Assembly: GCA_037576195.1 (NCBI GenBank)
Contig: CM075101.1
Span: forward strand, 25,544,001-25,608,000
Direction: 5' to 3'
DNA from: Phytoseiulus persimilis
Taxonomy: Eukaryota; Arthropoda; Arachnida; Mesostigmata; Phytoseiidae
Length of the DNA stretch: 64,000 nt
The translations under genes were made by a program, and so were the position numbers. Below the pieces are notes generated by a model that did not search any database, was not told the origin of the DNA, and worked only from the letters and a program-made list of their open reading frames with translations. How positions within the stretch are numbered: position 1 is the stretch's first letter; each line of letters begins with the position of its first letter. Positions 12,458 to 38,700 of this stretch are shown piece by piece.

Positions 12458-15002
12458 ATGACTCGATCGTTCCTTACTCATGACTCTGCAGATAAATACA
12501 CAGACATCACCACGGTCTATTATATCTTCGCTTTCCTCTTGGTCGGCGTACCCATCTGGTGGAAGTCCACCGCCATCCACCGAGCTTACATCCCTTTTGA
12601 TGAAATCGTCAATCTACACAAAAGCAATGTGAGTTTGACAGCTCATCGATTTCCTAGCTCCCTCGCCCTTTTTCAGCGTCACTCTAGCGCTCATTCCTTA
12701 CAGGTGTCCCAACTGATCCATGTTCTGCTCATGGTGGACGATGCTTCGATCGACATCGATCAACTATCAGCAACTATCTCTGAAGCGAACGCAATTAGGG
12801 ATTCCAACATGAATTCGGCGCATCTGCGATTCAGTTATGCCTGGAACATTCGTAGAGTTGGCAAGAGCGCAGAAGATGTTATCCTGAACTCTAAAAGTTT
12901 GTCATCCCTCGATGACAACTTCAAAACCGTTTTGGAAGGCGCTGCTGCAGATATTATCGTGGTTTTATCAAAATCTTTCTCACCGCACCCGCGCATAATC
13001 GTGGGCACTCACCGCACGGTTTTCGTTCCATCTGTGGAAAAGGATCTGAATATTCTAGCTCGTTATCTCGTGAGAAGTGTGGTGTACAACGTTGTTCGAG
13101 AAGACGTTCTCCGGAGTATATCGCAGCCATTTTCCAGCGAGGAACGAACACGGGTGAGGAAGTCCTTCGAGGAATTAAGCCTCAGGAGCGCTTCTCGCTC
13201 ATTCGTCGTTTGAATGGCTCGATGGTTCCCTAACTTGATATTCTTCTCTGAAGCCAACAAAAGAGCAGCAACGGTCACTGCACGCTTCGCCTTCCGTGGA
13301 TGTGGTGATCACCTGCGTCGTTCCTCAGCCCCAACTCATCGATGTAATTCTATACAGCGAACTTTTCTATAGAGTCTGAGGGGAGTTTCTGCCGTGCGCT
13401 CGCCTATAGGGAACGTATCTCATTGGAGTTTCGGATTCTTTGATTCAGGTGAGCTGGAACAGCGAAGAAGCTTATAAAGCGTACATGAAGCCGATCGTCA
13501 ACAGAATGAAACACGTGGTTCAGCTAAATCTCAAGACACAGGTAATGATTGTATGGTATGATCGGAAGTCCTTTCGTGTATCCAACATTAACATACATAT
13601 TTATTCAAACTTCGAGGATATTCCCGCAGTTCAAATTCGGTCATGCAATCAAGCTCAAGAGTGAGAAAGATCCGATATCCGGAGAAAACCACATTCATCA
13701 TGACAAGTTAGCCCTGCTGATAAACGAGGTATGCTCCTGTGAGGAAGGCAGAACTTCTTTATGAATTCCCGCGCCCAATGCACGCGCTCAGAATAGTGAA
13801 GCGCAGCTGACTTCCACAGCTTGAGAAGTTGTTGCCCGGCCAAGTTTCCCAGAACCCAGTTCTCAATTTCATCGTTTACACCGTGCCGAAGGAAATCTCG
13901 CCTCTGTATATCATTGATGAGCAAGGCAAGCGAATTCCTTCAAATAAAGACCGAGAATAATCCAGGTCGAGCAGCTTCGTAAAGTTTAATCGGAAAGTAT
14001 TCGCAGGAAAGAAACTCGACAGCAACGCTTTCATCTCTCCCCGGTGGGGAGGCGTGATGTTCTACAATGTTGACTTCGACGAAAAACCCGATTTGCCTCA
14101 GAAGGTGACGTTGAACTGCCATCGAATATACCAGGTACGATCGACAGATCTGAGAAATTTTCCGAAACTGTTGGGGCGAACGAAGATCTCGCTGTTGCCT
14201 CCCTACCACTGCTTCGGCTCGTAGTAGAATGTTTCTGGCTACCTGGAATCAGCTTCGTGGCTATCACTGATGCCTTGAGCGATTTTCAGGTTCTCCTTAC
14301 ACAGATTCGGCCCTTGATCGGCGTACCCGAGAAAAGCTCAGCTAAGGAGTTCGATACGCATTTCCGGCGCGACGGTGCCGTGTTTTCGGATTGGGAAATC
14401 GATTTCTTGATGCGAAGGAGGGCACATGACTATCTTAGTGCAACCGCTAGGACATTACATAGTTTAGCAGATCTCGTCAACAAAATTGGCAATATGGTCA
14501 TCAACGAGAACGTTGGACAACTGGTAGGTGGCTCATCCTGAAGCTTAGAGCGACGGATGATACTCGCGGATAGCTTCGATCGTCCTTCTCTTACAGACAG
14601 TGGCATCGGCAGCATCTGGAGGAAACGCGCTCCGACTCCTAGCTCAGGTAATCCTTTCCGCCGCACCCTAGCTGTACCTCGAGTCACTCGTTGCCACCCG
14701 TGAACGAAGCTCGGTATGCTCGCTGAAATTTCGCCGGAACCTCGAACGGTGGCAATCCTTCTTTCCAGGGGCACTTGGAGTCGGCTTTGGCATCGGCTGA
14801 GGACGCTTTCACAGCTTCTGAAAAAGCTTTCTTCGACCCCTCACTCTTGGGCCTCCTGTACTTCCCCGACGATCAGAAATACGCCATCTACGTTCCTCTA
14901 TTCGTGCCCACCCTGTATCCGATCATCTTCTCAACTGGTCTGATCGCGAGATACATGTACGCCTTATTCTTGAAGTGGCGTAAACCGAAGCAGACTGAGT
15001 GA
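12458..15002 (+). CDS. PIGS: GPI transamidase subunit PIG-S
   Basis: PIG-S is a subunit of the ER GPI-transamidase complex, which attaches GPI anchors to proteins. Ten exons sum to 551 aa (human 555): 12458-12628, 12704-13153, 13254-13343, 13449-13541, 13630-13728, 13820-13925, 14007-14134, 14290-14523, 14597-14647 and 14769-15002. An N-terminal membrane segment (residues about 18-35) ends GVPIWWK, as in human. The lumenal part includes PVLNFIVYTVPKEISPLYI and NAFISPRWGGVMFYNVD. The C-terminus has FFDPSLLGLLYFPDDQKYAI, then a second hydrophobic segment and a basic KWRKPKQTE tail. The intron after 13925 begins GC, not GT. Only this junction keeps the frame and yields the expected IDEQGKKLDSNAF sequence. 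The ATG at 12458 is the first in frame. Confidence 0.95.
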
Positions 15003-18195: not shown

Positions 18196-20390
18196 GGTTC
18201 CGAAATCACAGGTCACAGCTCGAGACAGTGAGATGCTCGCGTTCCGTCAGTTCATGCAAAGAGAAGATGCTCTCCCGGCGCTCATGGGAAACAAGCAACT
18301 ATTTTGAGCCTCGGTGATGGAATATGGCAGTCTTAACGTAATGTTTGAAGCGAACGAATCGAATCAGACGTCATGATGTTAAACAGTTGTGAAGCAACGA
18401 GTTTGCGCTTTGAGGAACTTCAGCGACCGGAGTTGAACTTGTAGTGGAAGTTTGTGAATGAAACTCATGTTTGCGACTCATTATCACGGCTGACTGCATG
18501 GAATATTGAGCCTTTGCCTCTGCTTCGCAAGGACCAATCAGCCGGAATCCGAAGAACTTAAGATAGAGAATCGAGCTATTCCATTGGAGTGGAATCGCGT
18601 CATGTGATATAAATCAACTCGTTTCGAGTGAAGCTGTAAAATAAAAATCGACGTTTTCGTAATTAGCCGCCTGGGAGTTCAAGTCGCATGAAGGGTCATT
18701 GAGTTGTAATGCTAATCGAGGCACTCGTTGTTCCTAGGAAACCGTTTTCCCGAAACTAGGTTTGGACTTCCCGAACCTAGAGAGAGGAGGTTGTTTACAC
18801 CTGTCTGGGAGCCGGGATTACAGTCAAACATCTCCGATGGGACCTTTTGGAAGGCCTTCTTCCAGGAGAATCTTGCATGCAATGGAAACGGGGTCGGGAG
18901 CACCAGATAGGAGGGGAGTTCCCGCACGGCGAAACTCGCCCGCTCTCGAAGACTGCTAACTCATGAATGGGGACCAATGGTCATAAATAGGCGTAAGAGT
19001 TTAGGCATCGATAATTCCATCAACCCCACGTAGCTAACGAACGTATGAAATCTCGGTGGCTCTCTTCTTCCCGGGATGGGAAGTAAGATTTCGCTCGCAC
19101 TTCGGTTTTTTCCGCGGATTGATGGCCGGTATCAACGGGTTCTCTTCTGCGATCATCCGCAGCAAATTGGTCCAATTCGTGGGCGCGTACCTCCAGGTTC
19201 CTAGGGTGTTCATTCCCTGTCGACCGCCTGGGGAAACGAAATTCTTCTGACAATTTCACTTCTGTAGTCTCCCATGGTGAGTCTTCAGTGACTGCTTCTG
19301 CCAGATCCCTTCTCAATAGAACGGCGCTCAACTTTCAAGATCTCGTTGCCAAACTAGTTAGAGTGCGTGTTAGAAGTCCGAATGCAAGTCTGCGCATGGC
19401 TGTTCGGACATCGGTTCGAAAGAGTTTCGCCCCGATAAACTTCATCTGGTCTGATCTTGTGCTGGAGGGTCGTTCCTATCCCAGTCTATCAGGCTATGGG
19501 CCCAACAACACGGAGAAATAAGATACCAATAGATGAGAAGAAGAGCCGCCACCCTAGGGGTTTGCTCTGGTGTTCAACGATAGTGGATGGATCATTCACC
19601 CCGCAGACGTTTCTCCATGCGTGTGCCGCTATTGGATCGCACTTGGACCGAAAGACAGAACATCAGGCGATGACGCATAATTCCGAGAAGTTACAGCATT
19701 AAAAGCTTGAATGAACTTTTCTGTTATACTGCCATGGTTCAGGCCTGCAGTGGATCGCAGGCAAACACTTTAGCAATTAACACCGGAACGAACATCCTGT
19801 ACTCATGTTCTTGTATCACTCATAGACGGGCCATTTCTCATCTGGTCGTGACTCTCGACAGCTGTGAGTGAAACGCCGAATCTGATGCTGGAGTTGACCA
19901 CATTCCCCAATGGTTCACGGTAACGAATCTCGAAACAAAAGCTCATCACAAAACTTCGGCTGATCGTCAATTTGACCTTCGCTCCAAATAGGGGATCGCG
20001 GACGCCTACCACGGGGGCCAAGCCTTCCGGTTGTAGAGGAGATGCTCAAGAGAGACCTCAGGGAACTGCGATCTATGGGGGACTTTACTTGGAGAGCGGG
20101 ACAGATTTCGGCCGTGTGGAGGACATCACTACCACGGACCGGAGGATATAGACAGAGTACGAGCTAGGATGAGGACGGCTGATTGAGCTGAGTTTTGAAT
20201 GGAAGTTCAGCATTGAGAGAGAGCTTCGAATGGTACATTGTTCATTCGGATCTTCAGGAAGTGTGAGGACTCTCACTCTGAACGCAGCTCACCAACCAGT
20301 GAATCAGTAACCCGGGCTCCTCAGCCCGGAATTCCATGATTCTCAAGTCGGGAAGCCGGCTGAAAACAGTGCTATCCGGTTTGTATCCGA
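18196..20390. other. Intergenic, no gene recognised
   Basis: About 2.2 kb follow the C1orf50 homologue. Open frames up to about 103 codons (19020-19331 minus) have no recognisable family. A possible poly(A) signal for the upstream gene is at 18640-18645. A short fragment near 19740-19765 resembles the arm of the element at 1076-2116. Confidence 0.5.
18640..18645 (+). terminator. Possible poly(A) signal for the C1orf50 homologue
   Basis: AATAAA lies about 445 bases after the stop at 18195. It is the first canonical hexamer that I noticed on this strand. Confidence 0.35.
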
Positions 20391-20394
20391 AACG

Positions 20395-20560
20395 TCGGAA
20401 AAACAACTATTCCGGCTGTAGCTGAATTTCGGAGTTTTGGGAGCGATTTTTCAAGAAGAACTGATCTGATCGGACTCATATTGCGTTCCTTTCCTGACGC
20501 CGTTACTCGGCCTTCAATGTCGTTCGCCTGAGACGGGAACGGAGTTACGTTCCTTTTCGA
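20395..20560 (-). repeat. Interspersed repeat copy 1 (inverted)
   Basis: Read on the minus strand, this matches the plus-strand sequence around 21390-21520. Shared words include gcgttccttt/gcgttccc near one end, gatcagactc-like sequence, tttgggagcgat and attccggctgt. The identity is imperfect, so this is an old family. Confidence 0.65.
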
Positions 20561-20589
20561 GACGACGGAAAAATTTATCACGCCAATCG

Positions 20590-20800
20590 AAGGATATCCT
20601 CCGAAACGTGATAAGCATAACTTATTCGAACAACGCTATGGCGGGGAAGAATTCAGAGAGACTCGCCGAAATCGCTCTAGAGGTTGCCGAATCGCGGCGT
20701 CCGGAGAGAAACGCGACATGAGTACGAACAGATCAGTGCTTTCTTGAAGATCACTCCCAAACTCCAGGATCCCCTGACTAACAGGAACGACGCGCACTCG
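20590..20800 (+). repeat. Interspersed repeat copy 2
   Basis: Shared words with the copy at 21260-21530 are cgccgaaatcgct, ggttgccgaa, agaaacgcgac, gatcagtgct, tcttgaagatc and ctcccaaa, in the same order. The minus-strand open frame 20636-20935 lies over it and is probably incidental. Confidence 0.6.
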
Positions 20801-21259
20801 GATGTTTGTGTATCCGCCGGCGTTTAGATAATCAAAGGACTGATTCCGTGGGGAGGCACTGGCATCATTCAGCCATAGGATGACTTCTCTTTCCGGCCGT
20901 TCAGGTTTCCCTCGTCTCGTAACGTACTCTGTCATCGACGGGACTCATTTCAGTGTATGGCGTTTTGTAGCCGTTTAGCGCGTGTACGAATCAATAGCCC
21001 GTCCCCATGGAAGTCACTTCGGGAATTCTGCTTCGACCAGTATTTCCGATGCGGCGACGTGCCCTTCATCAGATGCGCGCATTGCAAAAAGAGCCCGTGC
21101 CTCGCCCGGTCGTTCTGTTCTGAACATCATTTGGACTCTATACCATGATGATAATGCGTTTACTTCGTTTGCTGAAGAGTCTTCTGTCTCCGAGTATCCC
21201 TCTCCTCCACCGAAATCATTCACACAGTCAAGATTCGCTGAGATTTCCCTTGTTAAAAG

Positions 21260-21530
21260 TTTTAGGAAATGATGGAACTTCGTTCCCGTCTTGGACTTCC
21301 AGAAAACGCTCGATTGAACGATCGAAGACGGAAAAGATGCGTCTTTCCAACAGCTCACGGGCTCAAACGAGAAAAATCGCCAAAATCGCTTGGGACGGTG
21401 CCGAAAAGTGGCGTTCGGAAGGGAACGCGACGTGAGTCTGATGAGATCAGTGCTCTCTTGAAAATCGCTCCCAAAGCTTCAAAACCGAGCCACAGCCGGA
21501 ACTATTGTTTCTTTCCATACCTCTTCCAGG
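21260..21530 (+). repeat. Interspersed repeat copy 3
   Basis: This is the longest of three related copies within 1.2 kb. It contains aatcgccaaaatcgct, gtgccgaaaagtggcg, gggaacgcgacgtgag and gatcagtgctctcttg, which recur in order in copy 2 and inverted in copy 1. I found no transposase frame in it. Confidence 0.6.
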
Positions 21531-21544
21531 AACAAACCAGGTGA

Positions 21545-22464
21545 AACTATCTTGAACCGTCTAACGGACTGATCGTAAGCGAAGGTTCACTCAGTGGACA
21601 GAGTTCCTCATGGATGATTGGTGCCGCACAAAGGCCACGAGTCATCCCTATGACGGAACTACTCCTTCCTTTTCTCAGACTCTGCCGTTGATACTCCGGA
21701 CGGTCGATCAAGCTCACTGCCATTGGCAGACATCACAGGAATTCGGCAGTTTCCTCCGACTCTTCATCCAAGCTTGAGGAATCATTCATTCCATCCTGAT
21801 TGACTGTGGCAAACCGTGTCGAAGTCTCTCGGCGTGGTTTTGAGGACTCGCTGCTCTCCTGGGCTATATTCCTGATAAGAACTTCAGTTGCGACTTTACC
21901 CCAAGCAAACATCGTACAAATACCCAGTTTCGGGATGGATTCCCGTAAACTAAGCAAGCTGCCATTCTGACGTTTAAGAGTCCAATTCGCTTGACGCGTC
22001 TGATTCAACGGCTTCGGGACAACGATTTCAAAGTTGCTCCAACAGGGTGGAAATCGCGAACCCATGTCTTCACTTCGTAACCATCCGCTGGAAATCAGGG
22101 GCGGATTCAAGAGCGCTGGTGTATGAGGAGAGCGCAAAGCTTCCCAAAGACTCAGGAAACCTTTCGTCATTCGATCTTCCCCTTATTCCTTGTGGAAGGA
22201 TTGATTTATTGATACAAGCTCGATTGTTGTGACAAGAGATGTCAAGGTACTCGTTGTCGCTGCTCCTTCTGCTGCTTGCCCAGACTTATCAGCCGGCCTA
22301 ATAAATGTACACATCACTTTTTCAATCTGACACAGTAAAATTCTGCGTTTCAGATCTTAACTTGCTGTTCACATTGTTCCGGAGGCCTCTTAGGTTTCTT
22401 GATATCACGATGCCTCCGTATGGTACATGAACATGGCAAATATCGATTGTTAGGTTACTTCAAA
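21545..22464. other. 3' flank of the left KSR gene
   Basis: The minus-strand open frame 21733-22170 (145 codons) has no recognisable motif. A minus-strand AATAAA at about 22205-22210 could end the KSR transcript. Confidence 0.4.
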
Positions 22465-25400
22465 TTAAAACGTGGACTCGTTAGATCGAGTCGGGTTGGA
22501 AGGTTGAGATGGACATCGTGAAAGTTTCCGTTTGGGCAGTCGCTCCAGGTGCATTTGGAGTCGTACGAAATCCGGTCGATCATGTGCCTGATACGACCAA
22601 CAGAACATCAAGATATCTTTATAATCAACAATAGAATAGAGATTCGCCAAAGACGGCTTGATGCCCTTTGCCACTTGATAAATGATACTTTCTGGAGGTT
22701 GATCGCGGAACGGCCAGGTGCCGGTGAGCAGTTCGAAGAATACGGTTCCGAAAGCGTAAACGTCACTCCGAGTCGAAAACGAGAGATCCGGGTGCTCCAA
22801 CCCCGGCCGAAGATCTTTGAGAAGCTCCGGCGCCAAGTAATAGAGCCATCCCCGAGGAATAGTTAGGTAGTTTCCTCTACGCCCTTCTTGACATAGTTTC
22901 GCCACCGAGAACAGACCGAAATCGGTGATGACAATCTTGCCGTTCTCATAGAAGATATTCTTCGTTTTGAGGTCCTTGTGCAGGATACCTCTTGCGTGCA
23001 GATAGCCCATACCTGCAATGCGAATCCCGACCAATCGTAGGATAAGACCCAGCCCAATAGAAAGGATAGCACTCCATTATTCAATTCTGGCGCTGTCACT
23101 CACCCAAACAAATCTGCCGCGCTATACCCCCTATCCTGGTGTGGTTGAACTTGTCTTTCTGGTAGTGTAAATGCCGATAGAGAGTCAATCCTTTGCACAA
23201 CGATGTAACGATTGCCAAATTCGGTGGTTTGACGCATGCTCCCATGAATAACACAAGATTCTCATGCCGCGTTTTTCGAAATGTCGCGACCTCCTGCCTG
23301 AACGTTGCCATTATCTCGGAGCGCCTTTGGTTAGACGCGGATTCCATATTCAACATCTTCACCGCCACAGCACCATGCCAATTCCCCCTGCGGACGAGAA
23401 TGTAAAACTGCTGAGTTTTATTGGTAGAATTTCATCGAGAACCCGTCCCAGACTCGAATCTACAAAAGAAGTAAAGCTCCACAACTCCGATGTTCATACC
23501 TGTGTACGATCCCGAATTGACCCTCTCCCAATTTCTCCTCCAGGATCACCTCGTCCAGCGGAATGTCCCATTCTCGTGACGAGAGCTGTTTCGAAATGTT
23601 TGTATTAGTTCATGTCGATCGGTCCCACATTTCATGAAGTTCGTCCGGAGATCTTTCCAGCATGACAGTCGCAACAAACACTACAAGCAAAGTAACAGCC
23701 ACCGCATGAAACCCAGGCTAAGGAACTTTGAGGCGGGAACCCGAATGAACCGGTTGATATCCGTCAATTACGAAGAGTCAGAGAACGTGTGCTTCGTCGA
23801 TGACGTTCAGGGAAGGATCTGGGGATCATTTCAGGATTCGGGTGAGGGGAACTTTGAAAAAGGTGAGCGATGCTTTGCACAAATGAGAACAGTCCAACAT
23901 CGATGGTCCGAGAGCATAGTGCAAGGGTCAGAATAGGGTGTTCCAGGACAACAGAGATCCAATGAGCGGGACAGGGACTGACAGCCAATCAATAAATTGC
24001 TGAGGGTTAATATCAGATTGCATACACTGCTCTGTCTTGGCCAGATTTGATCCGGGCCATCGGCGTCGCCACCATCGTTTGACGCTTGTGAGTCCTGCGA
24101 GCCAATTCTATGTGCCAACGTCTTCTCACTGTCAGTCTGTGATTTGCATGAACAAGATTAGTGAGCTGGATTCGTGCCACGTTTCCATTCGGTCGACGAT
24201 ATCGATACTGAGATAGTTAAGTGTCAGAGTAGCAGCACGACCATCATGATAGATTCGTTACTTATTAACGTCCCCCGTAGCGCGGGAGTCTTCCTGCAGA
24301 CGTTGAAGTCGCTGTGGAGCTCCATTGCGCAGAAACTACTCATCCAAAGCATACTCACACTGACGCTCCCGGAGTTCGAGTTGCCTGAGACGACAGTTCG
24401 TTCAGAGTCAGTCATGGAGGCGTTTTTCGCTTCGCCGCCAACTGAGAGGTCTCCTGTGCTTTGTTGCTCTTTGCCGCCCCGCTTGAGATCATCTTGGACT
24501 GGGAATTTAAACTTCCTCCCTGTGGGGCCTACGACTTGAGGCGAGCCGGGAGCTGAGGAAGCGCAGGAAGACGTCGTACTGGAGGAATCTCCGGTGTGCT
24601 GCGAGGCGCCTCCTCTTGAGTTGCCTGCTGTCGCGTGCTTCGGCAACCTCATACCCGAGGGGGAATGGCTCCCGAGCGAACCGGTCAGGTTTTCAAAAGC
24701 ACCTTGCTGATATCTTTGTGCGAAGGCATCGAGAAGTTCGTTCGGAAGGCCGCAACTCGGGGGAACCTGGGGACAAGGTCCTCGTTGTCGGATAGAGCTT
24801 TCCTCATTCATTCATACGGCCTTTATCGCAGCACGTTAGCAAAAACGAACCTTATCAACGCAGTCCCTGTGGCAGCGGAACTTGCATTCTCTGCACTTAT
24901 ATCCGAAAAACATTGGTTTATCACATTGCTGACAGTTAGTCATCTTAACAAAGGCCGAGAATCGGTGACGGATTGCGTGGCTCATTCCCGGAAGTCGGGG
25001 CGAGCGAGGAACACTGTGGCTGGTAGGAGGAGGTGTGAACACATCGGCTGCGGGAATGAATTCATCCTTAACTAGGAAACTCCGAGTTGTTGTCGTGAAT
25101 CGCTCTCCCCTCGAGCTTCTGGATAATTATTGCCAGAGGGAGGGATTGCCATGGAAGCTAGGCTCAGACCTATGGAAATGCTCACATTGTGGTGTACGTT
25201 GGTGAGCTTGGCTGCTCATCACGGCCCGAATTTTCTCAGGATTGTCAGAGAAACACGCGTCTACAGCAGCGTCCGGCGAGGTCGCATACGAGGGACTCCT
25301 CGAAGGTGATAATCGCCCAGCCGTGCTAGGAGTGGGTTCGGTTTGGAGACGTCTACGAGTGAATCGATGGCCTTGTTCTCGATCGGATCTGAGTTGATCC

Positions 25401-27144
25401 AGCCGGGATTTCGGCACCGTCCCACTGCTCGTGATTTCTGGGAACCCTGTCGTCTTCCGCGGGATGGGAGGAGTTCTGAAAGATAAATGTTCAAGATGAC
25501 GGAGGACATCTGGTGGAGCTGCGTAGATATTGAGCAAGCGTTCGAAATCTCACTTGGTAGCACGAAGTAGTGTGGGTTTCGGGGGAATTTTCGGAGCCGT
25601 TGCGCGGTGCGGAGTTCCAGGCAGAGCCAACTGATACTCGGCTTTCCCCAGGTATTCCCAACTGAGGTCTTCATTGTAATCGATAAACTGTGGAATGATA
25701 ACACGCGTTGTTGAAGCCATCGAAAACTCAGAATAGAGCCCGATTCACATCGAAACACGGCCTCCCCTGAGAATCATTACCTTGCCCGCCGGATAGTCTG
25801 TGGTCAGATATCGATCGACGATCATCCGCAGATTTCGCAGGGCGACCACAAGATGCGCCCTGTCCTCGGCTTCACCATCACAGAGAGCGTCTGAAAAACC
25901 CAAATAAGAACTATCTCCCATCAAGCGCCACCACTCGACGAGTCGGCGAGGGACGTTAAAACCGAACTTGGGAACTCACCTTTTATCTGGTCCTCGGTAC
26001 GTTGGAACAATCGATCGAAATTTCCGCCTGTCACCTCCCTGATGCTGTTGACTCCGTTGTCGGTGAGACCTACGATTCTCAGCCAACAGTCTAATTGGGG
26101 GTATGCCTCAAGCTCGTCGTAATAGTCACCTTGTAGAAAAGCCTTCTTGCGGTGATAGATCTGCCGTGCAATATACTGAACGCAGACGGACTGAAAAGAA
26201 GGCGATGGAACGACATGAGTCAACTTCTGATTCGGCATCCGGCTATCAGGAAGAAACAATGAGCGTTCGATTCCCATTCCACTGAGGAGCACAGGCTGCG
26301 CTGCCTCGAGTGCAGAGAAAGGGTTCAGTGTCTGATCTAAAGCTAGACTTGGAACTGGCTCGGAGGACGTCGATGAGGAATGATTTTCGGGGAATATGCA
26401 GCGGACAGACGAGCACAACCGGATACCGATGCCCAAGAAGCTCGTGAGCTCACAGCGCGGAGCTGAAACGCCGCTCGAGGGTTCAAGCGCTCGAGTTCGT
26501 GAACATTCTTTTAGGAGCTCCAATAGTGAGAAGAATCGACGCTATCGACGAAGAATGAGGGAAGAACGGCTTCGAGGATGAGGTTTCGAGCCGATTCTTA
26601 TGCTATAAGATACGATTCTGGGAATGATGTCCATCAACAAGTTGTCGACTGCACTAGTCTAAGCTATTGTACCAGAACCGAGTGAATGAAGCTGACCGAA
26701 GCTATTCGGGAAGAAAGAGGGTATTACAAAAGCTTCCGCTACGCAGGAAAACTTCCTCTCTCTGTTCTCTTGGGTGTTCTGAGCGAGCTAGAACGAGAGA
26801 ATCCTGAATTTTCCAATAGAGGCTAATTTCCTTCGACAGTACGAACAGGAGCGACGTTCTCGCTTACACAAGAGCTTCACATACATACTCGCTCAGATGT
26901 CTTCCGCGATACTCGTATGGGAAAATAATGTTGCCGTACTAACGGAACTCACCTGAGCACAACGAATTTCTTTCCGCACGGTTTCGAACCTGGGACTCAG
27001 TTTGGTCTTGAAGCGCACCATCCGACAACACCAGAGATCGATGGAGAATTGGAGTAACTTGCAAACCTCGAGCGGGCTATACTCATAATCATACTTGATA
27101 TTGCAAGTGTTTTTTATCTCTTCTAAACGCTCTCGGTGGTCCAT
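22465..27144 (-). CDS. KSR: Kinase suppressor of Ras, copy A
   Basis: KSR scaffolds RAF, MEK and ERK in the Ras pathway. Eleven exons give 856 aa: 27144-26953, 26190-25980, 25890-25781, 25687-25554, 25475-25186, 25047-24851, 24766-24359, 24136-24026, 23585-23500, 23387-23104 and 23012-22465. In order come an N-terminal helical domain, a SAM-like region (YIARQIYHRKK ... ELEAYPQLDCWLRIVGLTD), an S/T/P-rich linker and an atypical C1 zinc domain (CQQCDKPMFFGYKC ... CHRDC). An ERK-docking FKFP motif lies near 464-467, followed by the kinase-like domain. That domain has GEGQFG, VAVK (K590), HKD instead of HRD (about 686-688), an intact DFG (about 705-707) and LAPELL. The exon 5 donor is one of two frame-compatible choices, and exon 8 is longer than in copy B. 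The frame is intact, with no sign of decay. Confidence 0.94.
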
Positions 27145-29627
27145 GGCTCATCCCTCACAGCAGGGCCGCGTACATCAGTCAGTCGCTCATTCGTCTGTCC
27201 ACCCACAGAATGGGCCCGAACACATGACACTATAAACGGACACAACAACTCGCAATCTCCTTCACATGGAGATCACTGATGTGGACGTTTCCGCAGTGAG
27301 GATGAAGGCACGTACATAAGTACGTCCAACTGTACCTTCGTTTCCGACTGCTTTCAAGCCAGTTAAGAGCCGCGGCGACGAGCGAACGGAGCTTCTAATA
27401 AATTCGTATCCGAAGTCGCAGCGCCACTGAACACGCTCATGCCTCTCTCGTCGATCACCCAATACGTCAAACTTTATTCCAGAACGGAGCTGTCTTAATG
27501 GTAGTGTTTCTCGACGCTTTCAGTTGTCGCTCATCTCGGAGCATACGGAGACTTCTTCGAAAGAATGCCAGACCCGGCGATTGGATTTTCGAGCTACTTC
27601 AGCGTCTATGAGCAAGTTCTTTCTCCTCGCCCGCTTTCTGTTCTTGCCTCTTTATCTCTCTCCACTAAGAGCTGTGCTAGAGTTCGAGTAAGATCGTGTG
27701 TTCAGACTGCTCCGCAGGAAACGTTCAGAAATTCCTCTGAAAACCGGAATTGGTTGGCAGAGAACTCGGGCATTCCTCTTATTTTTCGAGAGAGAACTCC
27801 GATATTTATTTTTCGCAGTGCGTAATCGACCACGATGAGGAACGGCTGAAGTACGCAGAATCTAAAGCTTCATTTTATAATCAGGCCATTCATTCGCTCA
27901 GAGTATTCCTTACTCTTGGGTGTCTGGTGTCGATTGTAGTCGTTATTTCGCCGATACTGGGCGCGTACGATTTTCCCTGAGCTGACGGACCGACTCAACC
28001 TCAGGGAGCTATGAAGATTTTCTCTCGGAAGCTGTAGAGGGATAACTGCCTGCATGTTGAATACACTGACGATACTTTGATATTGTACCACTCCGCTCAT
28101 CTTGTCAGTGAGCAGTGCCGCCGAGGGGTATTCCCTCAGTGGCTGGACAATCCACCTCAGCCCAGTGCAAGATTGTGGAGGGAAATTACAGTTGAGAACA
28201 TAGGTTCGCGGAGAGGACTAATGCGGTAAAGACAAATGGTATACGAGCTGATTCAGAACGCAAAGTAGAAATCAGGCGTCAACCTCTGTCTAAACTACTG
28301 ACCGAATGATGGAACCAGGCCGACGATTCCTCCGTATTGCATGAAATTCGAACTTCCCCACGGCGTTGAGACACAAGTTTTCGAAGCGAAGACCAGCGGA
28401 AAGGGAGCCACATCAGTTCAACCCCAAGAGCTCATGTGAAACGATCCCCCGAAAGGGATTGATGAACTTCAAACCTTGCCGCATGTGTAAATGTGTCGAG
28501 TTTGTTCGTTCAAAACCCTCATCTGGCGCGAAGTTGTTCCCGATGTACGACATGGAGGAGAGTGGACCAGAGCTTCTTTCCTAATCTCACTGGGCGCCCT
28601 CCAGTATGGGATCCTCGAGGCACTCCCAGCTCTGAATCCTGATTCTAAGCTCTATCAGCTGCCTGGAAGTTCTAGGATTCTGACTTCATCCGACCGTTCC
28701 CACATCCGCGTTCGCTACATCATCCTGGATAGAGGAATCCACATGAAACGATTGAACGTGGGAAACACGAGCTCTAAGTACCGTGGGAGAGTTCATTAAA
28801 AAATATCAGGCACCTGTCTCCATGGTGGAATCTCGGGAAGAAATTGTGTCTGATACCCTCCAGGAGCGACAAGCTTCACCGATTTCCTCCTATCGAGCAA
28901 TCGGAGCGCACCGCCATGCGGAGTGCGACCCATCCACGAGGGGCGAAGGCAGTTACGTTTGGGTCAGGGATCACATTCCCATTCCTTTGTGATTCGAGCA
29001 GCGATCATCACGTTGATTTGATCAGAAACTATGATTTTGCATCCACTAGATAGATATTATCCGTCCGAGGTCTATGCTACGAGACCGCGGGCTCCGTGTC
29101 AGTGAGCAGACGATTCCAAGGGGAAAGATGGTTCGAGCCTGGCCCCGGGGCTGTCGATCCATGAGTTGTTCCAATCCCGCTCCCTGGGATTGCAAAGCTC
29201 CGAAGCACCGGTATGCCCTGGATAGACGTGACGCCGGTGATGCTGTCAAACTCCATTTGGAATCGCTTGCCTCTTCTTCCCGTCCGTATACGAAAGCCAT
29301 CTTGATTAACAGACTTGTGGTCGCTCCCCGGCATTGGGAGGCTGCCCTTCTTCCGCGGATTAAGACATAGCTCTCTGATCCAAATATGACACAACATCCG
29401 AGCTGCTACGAGGGCATCAGCGCAGCGAAACCCACCCATATGACGATCCCCCCAGACTACCATACTTCGATTTTGTCATGGGCTCCCACTACGCCTACTC
29501 CCTTCATGTGAAGTGCGAGAGACATCTCTCTCCAAAGGAGCCCTCTCCCCGGGCAGTGACTGTCCCAGAGCCAGTTGGATAAGCGCGCAAGTGATGATCG
29601 CACTCCCGTGGGGCAGTAAATGTCGTC
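27145..29627. promoter_or_regulatory. Shared upstream region of the two KSR genes
   Basis: About 2.5 kb separates the divergent KSR start codons and must contain both promoters. I found no convincing gene. The minus-strand open frame 29077-29463 (128 codons) is rich in G, R and P and unrecognised. No extended palindrome is obvious around the midpoint, so the duplication breakpoint is not visible by eye. Confidence 0.45.
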
Positions 29628-32600
29628 ATGGACCATAGGAAACGTTTGCAGGAGCTGAGGAATTCCGACAATGTCAAGTTCGACTTCGAGTACAGCCCGC
29701 TCGAAGCGTGCAAGTTGCTCCAGTTCTCCATCGATCTGTGGTATAACCGTATGGTGCGTTTCAAAACAAAGCTAAGCTCGAGATACGAGCTCGTTCGAAA
29801 TGAAGTGCGATGTGCACAGGTGAGTGGATGCAAACAGTATGTATCTACCTCTGGGAGCGATTCCAGCGGCGGGATTCTTTGCCGGGTCTAATTCTGTTCG
29901 GGTGACGTACTCATTGACTTACGGATGAGTGCGAATCAATCACATGGTGCGTCTCTCGCACAGTTCCGCACTCGTCGACCGTTCCCGTGCGTGGAGACGA
30001 GGCTCCGGACCTTCGTTGAGTGGAAAAGGCGACGTTACTCATAGAATTGGGGAATAGGCAAGATCTGGGTTAACTGTCCTTTTTGAAAATCTGGAAGAGC
30101 GCAATCGACTTCTCTGGTCGGAACGTCATCTCTCGTTCTCCGTCTTCGACTCGGCGAGATTCAATGAAACTGCGTCCTTTAGTTTCGCGAGTATTCGTGA
30201 CATAGGAAACGAGCTAAGCGGCTAGTTCCATAGAGGCTAGCTCCTCATTCCCAACGAATCACAGAAGATGTGGAAAAATTCCTCTGCATGGAAACCTTCA
30301 TTACGAGTCATTGAAATGGGGAGAGAGCATGCTCACGGTCCGCCCCTCGGCTCGACACGGTGTCAACGCGGCCGTTCTGTCCCCGTGCCTCCTGATCGAG
30401 ACTTCTGAGTACAGTTCGGAAAAAATCCTGGATGTTAAAACACGGCCATTTGTGGAATGGAGGGAAAGAACAGAAACTTCACGGGGTAATATTGGTGCGT
30501 TTCCTTTCTTCACTAATCTACCGTCTGATCCGGGCTCGAGGGGGAAACCCCTCGCTCACAGCGTGCCCTGCACACGGGCTTCCATCTTCTCCATGACATA
30601 CCGTGCGCAGTGTCTTGAAACTTCAGCACATGTTTGAATCACATGAAGTGAACTATATGAATTTTAGCAATTCGTTTACCGGCTCGGCTGCGCGCGTCGT
30701 GGGAATCACCAACAGTTCTGCGGCATCCTCGAACCATTCGTCTCTCATTTGGGTCAGACGCCGCACGAGGGCTTGCGACAGGCTCGTACGGCTTGAGTCT
30801 CTTTGCTCGCGAGATCCCTGGGCAATCACCGCGGCTGTCGTCGAACTCCGACCAGAGTGAAGCTTCCGCGGTCATTGACCCAGCTCAGCGCTTCCCGACA
30901 GAATTGATTGGATAATCCCACTGTGTACTCATGCTGGATTTCGAGACAGCTGCTCAGAGCAGCCTATGTGAAGGTTCACTCCGAACGTCTCGTTTTCCTT
31001 CCGACTTCTCATCCTTTTTTCCTCATTTGAAAGATCAACCATCAGCACCCACTCCGGGTTTGTGCAGCTGCGGCTCCGGCCGTGCTACAGTTGGAGAACA
31101 GAGCAGCATTTTCCAATCCTTTCTCATCGGGTTCGGGTTGGAACACGACGAAGATCCTCTATCGATTCACGCGAGCTCCCCGATCAGAGGCACTGTTCTG
31201 CTCGGCGTTTCTGGCGACGTACATCAGACGTAATTTCCCCTCTCTTGCCATCTTTCAGTCAGTATGTGTTCAATACATCGCTCGGCAAATATATCATCGC
31301 AAGAGAGCTACCTCGCAAGGTACTCATCACGAAGATCTCGAGGCATATCCCGAGCTGGACTCCTGGTTGAGGATCGTCGGACTCACCGACAAGAGTGTTA
31401 CCAGTATACGAGAGATCGCGGGCGACAGTTTCGACCGTTTGTACCAACGCACCGACGACCAAATCAAAGGTGAGTCCACGAGGCAACTGTCATAATTGGC
31501 CATACTCGAACAAGCTGATGTCTTGGATTTCTGATTTCTGATTTTCTGCTGGCGGTCCGTGCTTCAACGTGCACACCATCGGCCTCCGACAGGCTTCACA
31601 AATCCTACTTCGGATCTCTCTCCGCCGCTGCTCACCCAAGGTCTCTTCTAGCCCGTGGCGCTGGGTTACAGTGCCGCGGCTTCGTTGACCAATGGGTTGA
31701 GGATGACTTGCGGCGTTTGCTCGCAGAGAATGGGAACCACACACACTGCTCTCGGGGTTTCCCGTTCGGCGATCTTCTTCTCGAGACAGCGTCGACGAGG
31801 CGGACTCGGTGAGCTGCGGCTCCTTGGAATCTGCTTGTACTCGTCATGGGCGAGGCGCCAAGTTGCCGCAGGTTGGTCATAGGTCGGAGGAATCACCTCC
31901 CGCTATGGCTCGTTGAAAATGGTAACCGAGGGATCATTCTCGGGATGGTAGTATAAGCGGACGAGCCTGCTGCTTGCGCTCTGACCTCCCGCCCAATACA
32001 GTGTCAACAAGGCTGCGCTAATCCGCACTCCTGGTACAGCCTTGGAACATCTGCAGCCATGTACTGTTGATCGAAATGAATGAGATTGGATCGTGATCTA
32101 GGCTGCGTCAGTTGGATCAGTTAACAGTGTGTTGTTAGGTTCCCAATCCATTTGAGATCTCAACAGTCTCAGTGTCCCCTAGGAGATCATTCTTGGACGT
32201 TGAAAGCCAACTCAGGACTCCTCTCCGTCCGTCCTCATCTGACCCGCATCTGGATACGACGGGAACCACTCGCCGTGATCTCTCGATTTCCGTAAACTCG
32301 GCTTAGTGCGAATCGCGCATCTCAAACAAAGCTCGATGGAGTACGCAGGGTTCTGACTGAAACTCATCATTGACGAGTTCAGCCATTCGCACGGAAGAGG
32401 AGTCGGAATGAGAGAAGAGGAACCAGAGTATTGTGCCGTGAAGAGATTGCATCCCATCTATAGTTTGATATGAGACACATTTTCCCAATTTCCAGATGCG
32501 CTCTGCGATGGTGACGCGGAGGATCGTTCGCATCTCGTTGTAGCAATGCGAAATCTGCGAAAAGTTGTGGAACGTTTCAGAACGACGGAGTACCCCCTAG

Positions 32601-35600
32601 GCAAGGTAGGGGAACATCTTGTAGCGAGCATCTTCGAACGAGCTGATTGTTCCCTGATTTAGCTATTTCATCTAGAGAGTGTTGCCTCCACAGTTCGTTG
32701 ACTATGATGAAGATCTCAGTTGGGAGTACGTGGGAAAAGCTGAGTTCCAAGCGGCACAACCCGTTACGCCTCTTCGCGCGGGCCCTCCGAAAAGCCAGAA
32801 GAAACCGATATTGCCTCGCCTCACTAAGTAGGTTGAGATCGGAGCACCACTTGCCTCCCTTAGTGCATCGAAGTGAGACTCTGACTTGCTCTTCCCGACA
32901 CAGAACTCCTCCGCATCAACGGAAGAACGCCGGATTCACGGACAACAGCTCCGGTGCATTCGTGGCGAAGTCTCGATCTGATCTGAGTCGATCAGACCAA
33001 GAGAAAGTTCCCCGGATCCCGCGCAGACGACTACAAACCGAGCCTACACCTAGCACAACAGGAAGTTTATCGCCGTCAAGAAGTCCCTCGTTCGCGACGT
33101 CACCCGACGCCTCTGTCGACGCTTGTTTTGTGGACCAGCCCGAAAAGTCCCGCGCAACCTCAAACGGTCAAGGTTCGTGTGAAACGTTCGTTGAAATGCA
33201 CGATAGGCTGGGTGACGATCGATTCCTCCCGTCCGCCCTGAATTCTCCAATCGCGACTTCAATAAAACCCTGACATCGCTCTCAGCCTCGTCGGGGAGCA
33301 ACACAGTTCCGAGATCTCCGCGATTGCCATGCATGAGCCACGCCATCCGTCACAGATTCGAGCACGGCGTTAAAGTGGCCAACTGTCAACAATGTAATAA
33401 GCCCATGTTTTTCGGGTACAAATGCAAGGAGTGCAAGTTTCGTTGTCACAGGGATTGCGCCGACAAGGTTGGTTTTCCTTTCCACTTTTCGCCTCCTTCT
33501 CGGGAACTGATTCTCTTGAAGGACGCCGGACGGCGTTGTTTCCTCGATCACAGCCAGGTTCGAAAGTCCGATGGGTGGCTAATGTTCGCTCTCATACCTC
33601 CAAGGTTCCACCGAGTTGCGGTCTGCCCAACGAGCTTCTGGATGTTTTCGCGCAACGATTTCAACAGCAAGGAGTGTACGGAAGCTTGTCGGTTTCACTC
33701 GGAAGCTACTCTCCGTGCGGTATCCCGAAGCATGCACTCGCTGGCAGCCTGCGTGGAGGGTTCTCGCACCACACAGGAGATTCTTCGAGCACAACGTCCT
33801 CCTGTACTTCCTCCGCGCCCGGCTCGCCTCATTTCACCAGCTCCACTGGGCTCTCGGGCTCGAACGGTGGCAAGAAGTTCCGTTTTCCGACTCAGGAAGA
33901 CTTCAAGCGAGGGAACAAGAAAAATCAAAGTTCTGCAGATCAGCTAACTGGCGGAAACAAAAAAACCAAATCTGTGACAGACTCTGAAAAGACCGTTGTT
34001 TCCGGCAACTCCAACTCCGGAAGCGTAAGCGTAAGTGAGGCCGGATCAGAGCTCCTCGAGAAAGCTACTTTTCCCCAAGAGCTCCTCATGTATCAATACT
34101 CCTCAATACTCATATTTCTAATCCGAAATTTCAGACAGACAGTGAGAAAACTATGGCACACAGAGTCAACTCACAGGATTCTCAGGTACAGACCTATTCC
34201 CATAAATCATCCCCAGAGTACTACAGTTCACATCGAAGACGAGTTTCCCTGCCTTTTCTCACTCGTCTGGTCATAGATTCGATACGAGAACTTACTCTAT
34301 CGCTAGTTATCATCTCGAGAATGGGACATTCCACTTGACGAGGTGAACCTTGAAGGAAAGCTAGGCGAGGGCCAGTTTGGAGTTGTCTATAGGTGAGTGC
34401 AGATTTTTTTCCGTTTCTCGCTCCCACGCCTCTGTCACTGGTCATGAGCTCTGAGTTATTCCGTTCCAGGGGGAATTGGCACGGTGCTGTAGCAGTTAAA
34501 ATGCTGAACATGGAATCGGCGTCACACAAGAGAAGATCTGAGATAATGGCAACATTCAAGCAGGAAGTCGCGATTTTCCGAAAGACGCGGCATGAGAATC
34601 TTGTGTTATTCATGGGAGCTTGCGTGAAACCCCCAAATTTAGCCATCGTTACTTCCTTATGCAAAGGAATCACCCTTTACCGTCACCTCCACCACCGAGG
34701 AGACAAATTCAATATCACCAAAATCGGAAGTATCGCGCTACAGATCTGTCTAGGTGAGTGCGTTCTTTAGTACATTTCGAATACTTCCCGAACACGAATT
34801 GGTCCCCATTCGCTCACCGAGGAGACTTGGTAGTCTGCTAAATGAACCGCCCCAAACTGGAGTGCGCTGGCTTCTCGATGTCTTGATGGGAAGTGTTCAG
34901 ATTCGACTCAAGTGGGAGCGGAACGATGTAGCGACCTATTTCGGTACGCTTCACCGTTCGGTTGAAGGACCATCTAAATCTGAGACAATTTTTCATTATC
35001 CAAACTGTCGTCAGTCAGAACGGGGTGGGCTTGTTGAGAAAAATCGAAAGAGTATGGCATCAGATTTCGGCGGGACCCCGACCGATCCTCTGGTTTTGCT
35101 CCGTTGTCCTGGAGTCGTGTGACACGAATTTATGTGGAGTTCCCGCCCCGAAGATGCGCATCGCTCAACGAATCACTTCCGCAGGTATGGGCTATTTGCA
35201 CGCAAGAGGCATCCTGCACAAGGATCTGAAGACAAAGAACATCTTCTACGAGAACGGCAAGATTGTCATCACGGATTTTGGCCTATTCTCTGTAGTGAAA
35301 CTTTGTCAAGACGGCCGCAAAGGAAATTATCTGACCATTCCTCACGGATGGCTCTGCTACCTGGCACCGGAGCTCCTCAAGGATCTTCGGCCAGGAGTCG
35401 AGCACCCAGATCTCTCATTTTCGACTCGGAGTGATGTCTATGCTTTTGGAACGGTATTCTTCGAACTGCTCACAGGCACTTGGCCTTTCCGTCGACAACC
35501 ACCCGAGAGTGTCATCTACCAAGTCTCGAAAGGCATAAAGCCATCTCTGGCGAATTTCCAATCGACGGTGGATTTCAAAGAGATTTTAATGTCGTGCTGG

Positions 35601-35732
35601 GCGTACCAAGCACACGATCGACCCGATTTCGTACGTCTACAAATGCACTTGCTGAGGCTTCCGAAACGTAAACTGTCACGCTGTCCATCTCAGCCATCCA
35701 ATCTAGCACGCTCCACCGAGTCTGTCTTATAA
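29628..35732 (+). CDS. KSR: Kinase suppressor of Ras, copy B
   Basis: This is a paralogue of copy A in the opposite orientation. Eleven exons give 830 aa: 29628-29819, 31259-31469, 32496-32605, 32694-32827, 32904-33172, 33286-33467, 33605-34030, 34135-34185, 34307-34392, 34470-34753 and 35185-35732. Seven exon lengths (1-4 and 9-11) equal those of copy A to the base, and all phases agree. The domains are the same: N-terminal helices, a SAM-like region (ELDSWLRIVGLTDKSV), an S/T/P linker with RRRLQTEPTPST and an atypical C1 domain (CQQCNKPMFFGYKC). Then come an FRFP ERK-docking motif (458-461) and a kinase-like domain with GEGQFGVV, VAVK (K564), HKDLKTKN (660-667) and DFG (679-681). Introns are longer than in A (intron 1 about 1.4 kb against 0.76 kb). 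Both genes look functional. Confidence 0.94.
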
Positions 35733-38700
35733 AACCACTCGAAGATTCCTGCCTGCGATCCGCCTTTCAAGCTGGGGAGCTTGAGTTCTTGTGATCGAAA
35801 CTTTGGAACAACCTAGTTCAACTGTCGCTAAGAAACGGGAGCGTGGCGCACCCGAATGTAGGAACAGTGATATTGACGGGCAAAAGTTTCGTGACGTGCT
35901 GGGCAGTCAGAAACAATTTCATGAAACAGTGAGAAAGTGACAGCTTATCAGCTTGACATCTTCTACCTGATACCGAGAAGCGATGGATCTCCCTTCTGTC
36001 GCCGAGACCCGGGTTTCTTGGACAGCTTCGCAGTGAGGAATTTACCAAGTAAACCTAATCGGCGACGAATCGATGTGTCGAGGTTAACAGGTGTTGGGGA
36101 GTGTCCGTTACTCGAGTCAAGTATAATATCGAGGGGAGACATGGGAGAAACTATTCCGGAGCTGACATGACTCATGAAACATGACCTGTAGGCGGTCGGT
36201 TCGGGTTGTTCCCCATACTGAACCTCACGGACTCACTCACGGGATGGTGGAAACAGCGATTACATGAAGTGTTCCGGAGTCAAGGGAGAAGCCGTGCTGC
36301 TTTGACAGTTACTCTCAGATCAGTGATTGGGAGAAGCCCTCCGAAAGGGAAAAATGGAGTCAAGGGGTACTTCTGAGAGGATTCGTCGTACAGCTAGCCC
36401 ATGGTGGACGAACAACGAAAGTGGTTTCTCCGACAGCCAGGAAGAATACTCAGGTTCAAAACTAGAATATATCCCAAATGTCGAAAGGAGATATCAACCG
36501 GAAAGAACTACTTGGGACCTTGGTCGAAAACTTTATTTTATGGGGCTCATCAAATTGACGGCTCCAGGCTGACTCGGAACGCCGAGGACGAGAAGCCATC
36601 TCGTGCTCTGGCAACCCAATGCACTCCAGTCTCGGGTCTAGAATATCCATGCAATAGCTGGAATCAAACGTTGCTAATCGTGCCTGTTTAGTTCAGAAGC
36701 TGAGACCTTCAGATACCATGCACCTATGGACTAGTCAGCAGTGTAAATGAGTCGACTATTCAAAATGTCTCAGTCTCTCTCTATCTCTCTGTCACGGATG
36801 GTTACAATGTGATCGCTTGTAAAGAGGGCCATCGGGAAAGAAGTTCACTCTCATGAGAGAAATAAACCAATGACTCGAGATTCTCATCCTCGGTGAAAAC
36901 ACCTCAAGTTTCCTCACCAAAAGTTGCCCGCCACATGATTTCATCGCTTGAGGGTCCTATAGATCAGCAAAAACGTAAAAGGTTCTCGGGAAGTCGGGGT
37001 TATTGAGGTAAGTACGATCCGCCACACCGCGCCGATGGAGACAAGCAGACTTGAACAGCTGGGTTTCTCAAGGTGGGCAGGATACTTCGTAGGTGTGGAT
37101 TGACCTATCCGTATTCGATTTTGAGGTATCGGGTCCAGTTCATGATACCGATTCCCTTGACTACGAGTTTCACATTTCCTTGGCGTAGTAGCGCTCAGAT
37201 AATCATTTCAGGAAAAAGCAAATGTACGAATCCGGGATTCGGCGACAACATGTGATTGCATAGATTTCAGCCTCAGCTTACGACAATTATTGTTTTCCGA
37301 TTGACGAAGCAGATCATGCTATACCGGGGTTCCGTGATTGAACTGTAATTTTTGCCGCATACTGGTGAATACATGATCAATACTCCTCTGGCTCCCCAGA
37401 GAGGTTCAGACGGCTTGACCCATCAATGAAACCGGGAATCAGATCGAGCGATGCGAGTTTTCAGCGAGCCTTCGAAGCTCCCCGGTGCCGCTGGTCACGG
37501 CAACTGGCTTCGATCGCGGTCCTTGATTCCCCGGAGCGCCACGCGGCCATGACATCCAACTCCGAGATCCTTCTCCATGGAGTCGAGCTTTCTTACATCA
37601 ATGCTAGATTTGATTCAAGCGTGGGAGACTGGATCGACGCAACTGGAAGCGAAAAGATATTCCCCGGAGGAGCTCGTGCTCGCTATCCCGAGCAGCACTG
37701 GGTACTCGGTTCGATCAACGGTGTCCTTAATGACAATGCTCAGAGTCTCGGTCCCGTACGACCTTCTGACACAACAGGAGACTTGATTCTCTCGCGGGCA
37801 GTGGCGTTGCAAAGGAGAAGTGACAACAAGGGAACGGCGTTCCTGAAGGGCAGCATTTCCATCGGCGTCGTCGTAATGCGCATTCTTAAATCGCGAAACT
37901 GATATCCGGAGAAGACACACTCGAAGGTTTATAGATGAAAAACTGATGAATAGCGTGTGACAACGTGTCACGAGTTGACGTTCACCCCCAGGAGGCTGCA
38001 TAATCGAGTTACGCCACAGTTGGATTTGGTTGAATTCCCTGAAATGTTCAAGCTCAAGCTCGATTGTGCCTCTGCCCCGTCACACCTCTGCCGCCAGAAT
38101 CGTCTTCGTGTCCATCAGCTCAATCCCGGTTCCCAGACAGAGAAGGATACCGTGATCGAATCGAGAGCCACCGATGATGGCTTCAGAGTACGTCTAATCA
38201 AGAGAAACCATTTGAGCGTTTTTGGAAGTCAGCATTACGCGACTAGGTGGTGAGGTCCCCGGTATATCGATACTTTTTCGCAGATGCGATTCATTTGTTC
38301 GATATGGACGATTCCAAGATGCTCACCCGGGGAATAGGACGCAGTCCTAAGCTCCTCCCCTGTTGGTGACAGCATTGGAATCGAAACTTTCGGAGCAGGT
38401 GTTAGAAGATATTAGGAGTTATGACCGATGAGCTGATCAGCGAAGGAAGCAGAGCGTCCGATGTTGCCTATGGAGCCCTCGACTATCGTCCAATGATTGT
38501 CGGTACGGGCCCTGGTAATCATCTCAATCGGCCCTCGGGTTTCAGTCCGAACAAGAACGAAAGAGATATTTCAGAGTCTGCTGGAGGGAGGCTCGTTGAC
38601 TGAAATGCGGGACTTCGGGTTTTCGAAATTATGCCGCGTTCGCGTTTGTTTACATGCGGCACTCTCTTCTTTTTCCCCTCCCACAACACATAAGAACTAT

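Follow-up and report, generated by a model that had tools for sequence, protein, structure and literature searches.

How did two complete genes for the scaffold protein KSR come to lie head to head in the mite Phytoseiulus persimilis, and what could have kept both of them? The genes, here named KSR-A and KSR-B, are located in a stretch of 64,000 nucleotides of contig CM075101.1 (GenBank assembly GCA_037576195.1), which is referred to below as the window. Very probably, the two copies arose in one event, an inverted, head-to-head duplication of a single ancestral KSR1-type gene, which would have occurred after the split from insects but long before present species. They are not haplotypes but old paralogues that have evolved under purifying selection.

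Structure and class of the KSR pair

The two gene models were predicted by hand from splice signals and from comparison of the copies with each other, with the sequence as the only source. KSR-A (27144..22465, minus strand) and KSR-B (29628..35732, plus strand) form a divergent pair, both members of which are complete, and their start codons (27144 on the minus strand and 29628 on the plus strand) are separated by 2,483 nt. These rebuilt models agree with an earlier reading of the locus (the original prediction), which had described two full KSR genes in opposite orientation with starts 2.5 kb apart. Each copy has 11 exons and the ten intron phases are common to both (0,1,0,2,1,0,0,0,2,1), and exons 1, 2, 3, 4, 9, 10, and 11 are of the same length in A and B (192, 211, 110, 134, 86, 284, and 548 nt), so that the exon number, the identical phases, and the seven equal exon lengths of that reading are all confirmed. 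Exons 5/6/7/8 are unequal (290/197/408/111 nt in A and 269/182/426/51 nt in B), with length gaps of 21, 15, 18, and 60 nt, each a multiple of three. They had been described as four diverged linker exons, which holds for the divergence, although exon 6 also contains the C1 domain and is not linker alone. At the end of exon 8, B has the donor CAG/GTACAG, where the corresponding position in A reads CAA/GCGTCA; the A frame continues without a stop as far as a GTATGC donor 60 nt further on, giving 20 extra residues in the predicted model. The resulting proteins comprise 856 aa (KSR-A) and 830 aa (KSR-B) and agree at 632 of 822 aligned residues, which excludes chance resemblance. The features of the pair are as follows (window positions).

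KSR-A exon 1: 26953..27144, minus strand; start codon at 27144; GTGAGT donor, phase 0
KSR-A exon 2: 25980..26190, minus strand; SAM_KSR1 region begins
KSR-A exon 3: 25781..25890, minus strand
KSR-A exon 4: 25554..25687, minus strand
KSR-A exon 5: 25186..25475, minus strand; linker, 290 nt against 269 in B
KSR-A exon 6: 24851..25047, minus strand; C1 domain
KSR-A exon 7: 24359..24766, minus strand; linker, FKFP motif
KSR-A exon 8: 24026..24136, minus strand; 60 nt longer than in B, predicted GTATGC donor
KSR-A exon 9: 23500..23585, minus strand; P-loop
KSR-A exon 10: 23104..23387, minus strand; kinase N-lobe, VAVK, TRHENLVLFMGA
KSR-A exon 11: 22465..23012, minus strand; HKD, DFG, APE, C-lobe, stop
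Spacer between the start codons: 27145..29627, no strand; 2,483 nt, GC 0.51
KSR-B exon 1: 29628..29819, plus strand; start codon at 29628
KSR-B exon 2: 31259..31469, plus strand
KSR-B exon 3: 32496..32605, plus strand
KSR-B exon 4: 32694..32827, plus strand
KSR-B exon 5: 32904..33172, plus strand; linker
KSR-B exon 6: 33286..33467, plus strand; C1 domain
KSR-B exon 7: 33605..34030, plus strand; linker, FRFP motif
KSR-B exon 8: 34135..34185, plus strand
KSR-B exon 9: 34307..34392, plus strand; P-loop
KSR-B exon 10: 34470..34753, plus strand; kinase N-lobe
KSR-B exon 11: 35185..35732, plus strand; kinase C-lobe, stop

Both copies encode what are predicted to be full KSR1-class pseudokinase scaffolds. 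The N-terminal CC-SAM region (SAM_KSR1, 28.1 bits in A and 34.9 in B, Pfam cut-off 22.5) and the C1 cysteine-rich domain (36.9 and 34.0 bits, cut-off 26.5) pass in both, as does the kinase domain, in which the VAVK, HKD, and DFG motifs are kept in the two copies; neither copy gave a match to the RAF-type Ras-binding domain (RBD) at E <= 0.001. For KSR-B, the copy submitted to structure comparison, the best solved matches were fly KSR (8bw9) and then human KSR2/KSR1 chains. Kinase identity amounts to 88% between A and B, 57/56% to fly KSR, and 48-49% to human KSR1/2, and a kinase tree of eight sequences sets A and B apart from the rest at 100 ultrafast bootstrap (UFBoot). Of 121 kinase columns conserved in the fly and both human KSRs, A retains 102 and B 101. 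Relative-rate counts divide the copy-specific changes evenly (6 vs 9 with the fly as outgroup, not significant; 5 vs 7 with human KSR2; 7 vs 6 with human KSR1), so that neither copy shows a sign of being dead. The proposal that the duplication left room for specialisation remains a hypothesis; kinase and scaffold features are kept in both.

Each exon-7 linker additionally carries an FxFP motif (FKFP in A, FRFP in B), which we take to be the ERK-docking motif. By analogy with known KSR systems, KSR-A and KSR-B are predicted to scaffold MEK and activate RAF: each copy would bind MEK via its C-lobe and form a side-by-side dimer with the single RAF, the CC-SAM and C1 regions would recruit it, FxFP would dock ERK, and RAF would be switched on allosterically.

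The original prediction had assigned one or two KSR genes to most invertebrates, which is to be corrected to KSR1 plus KSR3 in most non-chordate phyla (PMC10322840). This distribution would favour a different origin, in which A and B are anciently separate KSR genes, such as KSR1 and KSR3, that adjoin by accident. KSR3, described in Rhipicephalus, Limulus, and sea urchin, belongs to the same kinase superfamily as A and B but is defined by the loss of CC-SAM, DFG, and the VAVK lysine (PMC10322840), and these losses occur in neither copy; SAM_KSR1, VAVK, HKD, and DFG, which KSR3 lacks or has remodelled, are present in both. Furthermore, the common intron phases and the kinase identity argue against such a pair, and a distinct KSR3-like gene lies elsewhere (contig C1:37646900). 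An accidental KSR1/KSR3 neighbourhood is refuted by the domains, motifs, and kinase tree of A and B and is extremely improbable.

The KSR3-like gene (C1:37646900-37647730) consists of an open reading frame that encodes a kinase domain; its C1-domain score, 24.0, is just below the cut-off of 26.5, and the VAVK lysine, HRD/HKD, and DFG are missing. No SAM match was found in its 485-aa frame, nor any N-terminal KSR match in the surrounding 8.5 kb. In the kinase tree its branch is very long (1.84) and joins the RAFs (89 UFBoot), and its identity as KSR3 therefore relies on these features more than on the tree. The genome searched comprises 181 Mb in 127 contigs, including four large ones of 54.7, 52.0, 38.9, and 28.1 Mb. 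A whole-genome KSR search gave 60 matches, of which the best candidates were scored, so the KSR count is a lower bound; among the matches listed, only A and B reached KSR level, followed by RAF and the KSR3-like gene. A SAM_KSR1 family search of the genome missed even KSR-A and KSR-B and is hence uninformative on copy number. This genome thus has a doubled KSR1-type gene and has kept one KSR3-like gene.

Age and origin of the duplication

A codon-based maximum-likelihood model over the whole gene gave a synonymous divergence (dS) of 1.70 and an omega of 0.086; the log-likelihood drops by about 8 units when dS is set to 1.22 or 2.67, and by 59 units at 0.77. The part preceding the kinase yielded dS 2.16 and omega 0.090, and the kinase dS 1.27 and omega 0.057; counting methods were saturated (pS 0.745, with 184 of 297 fourfold sites differing). 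By alignment score, 8 of 10 intron pairs fell within about 2 standard deviations (SD) of 20 mononucleotide shuffles, and when the two sides were compared by blastn (E <= 0.01) over 14-16 kb outward from the spacer midpoint, all 12 matches were exonic. The high dS together with barely alignable introns rules out allelic copies and a recent duplication. An assembly artefact placing two haplotypes in inverted order, for which the inverted symmetry of the locus is the sole point in favour, is rejected on dS, with the introns hardly aligning and both genes on a single 54.7 Mb contig; it deserves practically no credence, and the concern about collapsed haplotypes raised in the original prediction is excluded.

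Several points weigh against an old, lineage-specific duplication, or limit it. Introns 1 (223 vs 183 +- 9) and 8 (28 vs 13 +- 4) exceed the simple shuffle. Fourfold differences are fewer in the kinase exons (61/112) than in exons 1-9 (123/185; Fisher p 0.048), a pattern that would fit old gene conversion. Both genes are known from sequence alone and their expression is predicted, and the term lineage-specific is based on fly and human outgroups plus one Rhipicephalus KSR1 (PMC10322840). The slightly lower fourfold divergence of the kinase exons is also what a recent duplication kept alike by gene conversion would predict. However, synonymous sites are near saturation over the whole gene, the longest identical run is 35 nt, and the longest run of identical codons (10) is not unusual (permutation P 0.16); gene conversion is rejected as the main story and appears highly improbable as an explanation of the pair.

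An inverted duplication of one ancestral gene therefore remains the favoured origin, and its timing can be placed approximately. Kinase branch sums are 0.146 between A and B, about 0.885 between A and the fly, and 0.409 between human KSR1 and KSR2, and on this comparison the mite pair looks younger than the human one. With the arthropod split, at about 550 My, used as a scale, the branch sums would put the duplication very roughly at 90 My, to an order of magnitude. The vertebrate KSR1/KSR2 and worm ksr-1/ksr-2 genes are chromosomally separated, whereas the mite copies are head to head and 2.5 kb apart. Like the mite copies, which are both full length, the vertebrate and C. elegans pairs are duplicates of an ancestral KSR1-type gene, duplicated separately in vertebrates and nematodes (PMC10322840), and the mite duplication appears to be independent of both. 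As no other KSR1-type match was listed in this genome and the published survey gives a single KSR1 alongside one KSR3 for the tick Rhipicephalus (PMC10322840), an origin of the duplication within the mite lineage is most likely. Of the proposal of a lineage-specific inverted duplication, the whole-gene and inverted nature stands, as does the specificity, at least relative to flies and vertebrates (tree, 100 UFBoot). In the open-licence literature searched, nothing on topic was found for KSR in mites, KSR/Raf in Acari, or ERK duplication in Phytoseiidae.

The spacer and possible shared regulation

Retention of both copies would most likely reflect a division of expression or dose, with the disordered linkers drifting. 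Alternatively, a bidirectional regulatory region common to both genes, and not a division of labour, may have kept the pair, as the divergent orientation and the 2.48 kb from start to start would allow. A head-to-head pair with a bidirectional promoter usually has transcription start sites (TSSs) within 1 kb (PMC7817982, PMC4089025), and with the start codons 2,483 nt apart this definition would apply only given long 5' untranslated regions (UTRs). The spacer contains no TATAWAWR word and 11 initiator-like TCAGT words, both strands counted; its CpG observed/expected ratio (o/e) is 0.98 vs 1.07 for the window, and Rfam found nothing in 20000-38000. In the mirrored sense, as expected of a duplicated promoter, the spacer halves share 1 ten-mer against a null of 1.6, with no excess. 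In the same, plus sense they share 7 ten-mers (null 1.6 +- 1.7, maximum 7 in 200 shuffles), 4 of which belong to a single direct repeat of 13 nt (28103 and 29097, plus strand) that contains TCAGT. The co-regulation suggested in the original prediction is not borne out by these counts, since the mirrored words are at the null and the excess in the opposite sense is mild and mainly due to that repeat. These spacer features neither demonstrate shared control nor speak decisively against it, and retention through a common regulatory region seems unlikely.

Partner genes and wider context

In flies, CNK-HYP associates with KSR-MEK and promotes the dimerisation of RAF with KSR, and CNK residues N82, Q84, and D195 matter for KSR-MEK binding (PMC11257983). 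A CNK family search of the mite genome gave two matches (C1:26713390 and C1:26716947), which lie some 1.1 Mb away from KSR-A and KSR-B. These genes (C1:26711302-26717453) are in tandem on the same strand with one long open frame each, the longer encoding 866 aa with SAM, CRIC, and PH domains and the shorter, upstream one 550 aa with SAM and CRIC; the latter has no PH match, nor was one found by tblastx in the approximately 1.3 kb after its stop. The longer CNK, the one submitted, has fly CNK as its best solved match. Within the first 400 residues, 316 of 395 aligned positions are identical, with omega 0.03; dS is saturated, which gives no ground for dating the CNK and KSR pairs to the same time. 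In alignments read by eye, both mite CNKs have N82, Q84, and D195, with M197 = L and V198 = I.

The fly has a single KSR gene, whose product is the best solved match of KSR-B. Of the KSR residues tested in PMC11257983, the CNK-contact residues K903 and Y925 are common to the fly and both mite copies, and each mite copy carries I in place of M902, Y in place of W896, and V in place of R913. The TRHENLVLFMGA stretch of kinase exon 10 is identical between KSR-A and KSR-B. Across the CNK-facing kinase stretch (fly 902-925), A and B differ at 7 of 24 positions vs 31 of 281 elsewhere (Fisher p 0.019); since 62% of shuffles contain a 24-residue window with 7 differences, and a different window of the real alignment has 8, the evidence for extra divergence at this face is weak.

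Among the remaining partners, RAF was found once, on contig C3, and holds the sole RBD match in the genome. HYP was recognised by eye once among 23 SAM_1 loci, at several of which the SAM frame was missed, so there is at least one; it matches fly aveugle (3bs5, E 8e-15). The MEK1/2 motif occurs at two places (C2:10558670 and C2:46498843), both nearer MEK1/2 than other MKKs; their activation segments are intact as far as the exons were read. The ERK1/2 motif occurs at four (C1:3929586, C1:3937185, C1:3951382, and C3:25681694), three of them within 22 kb on contig C1. The one ERK1/2-like locus submitted had MAPK1/3 as its best match, and the four are 88-97% identical pairwise over 98 residues, with synonymous sites near or at saturation. 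The MEK and ERK comparison covers the motif-bearing exons, and exact-motif counts can miss genes. As controls, the p38 motif was found once, JNK twice (C3:30021332 and C4:9699432), and those of other MKKs three times (untranslated); since JNK too has two loci, duplication is not a peculiarity of the ERK arm. A Ras P-loop pattern had no match in the genome, which is uninformative, as a site interrupted by an intron or altered at one residue would go unseen.

From these counts, the mite lineage might have doubled the scaffold-and-kinase part of the ERK pathway piecewise (KSR x2, CNK x2, MEK1/2 x2, ERK1/2 x4), with RAF and HYP as single shared nodes. Under this scheme, which we regard as quite doubtful, a common RAF could now serve several KSR-CNK-MEK-ERK complexes that are in part distinct, and KSR-A would differ from KSR-B in its contact surface for CNK and MEK.

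Elsewhere in the window, Pfam identified ZPR1 (3345-3977, minus), dymeclin (6414-8444, plus), RRN3 (9416-10888, minus), PIG-S (12434-13210, plus), aldehyde dehydrogenase (46407-47219, plus), and V-ATPase subunit H (55289-55804, minus). Two further window frames matched no Pfam family, and a tRNA scan of the window with bacterial settings found none. A homeobox survey, in which 25 distinct places were viewed among 95 matches (3 without a readable box), revealed two Pax-type homeoboxes at C3:30750430 (plus) and 30765658 (minus), about 15 kb apart, inverted, and differing at 3 of 63 residues, which by signature residues are presumably eyegone-like. Hox-type boxes are dispersed over three large contigs, and by signature residues we take them to be pb-like on C2, Antp-like on C1, and Ubx-like on C4. 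Hox genes are reported to be scattered in Metaseiulus occidentalis and clustered in Neoseiulus cucumeris (173 Mb), each with three chromosomes (PMC6902594). Phytoseiids with four chromosomes also exist.

Taken by itself, the KSR arrangement is of modest interest; what justifies a second look is the wider set of duplicated partners. A KSR3-like gene in this mite would extend the range of KSR3 in chelicerates beyond the tick and the horseshoe crab listed so far (PMC10322840). With intact, adjacent, and old copies in a compact genome with one RAF, a division of labour between KSR-A and KSR-B becomes testable, and the additional copies of CNK, MEK, and ERK allow one to ask whether the partners in a signalling complex are duplicated together.

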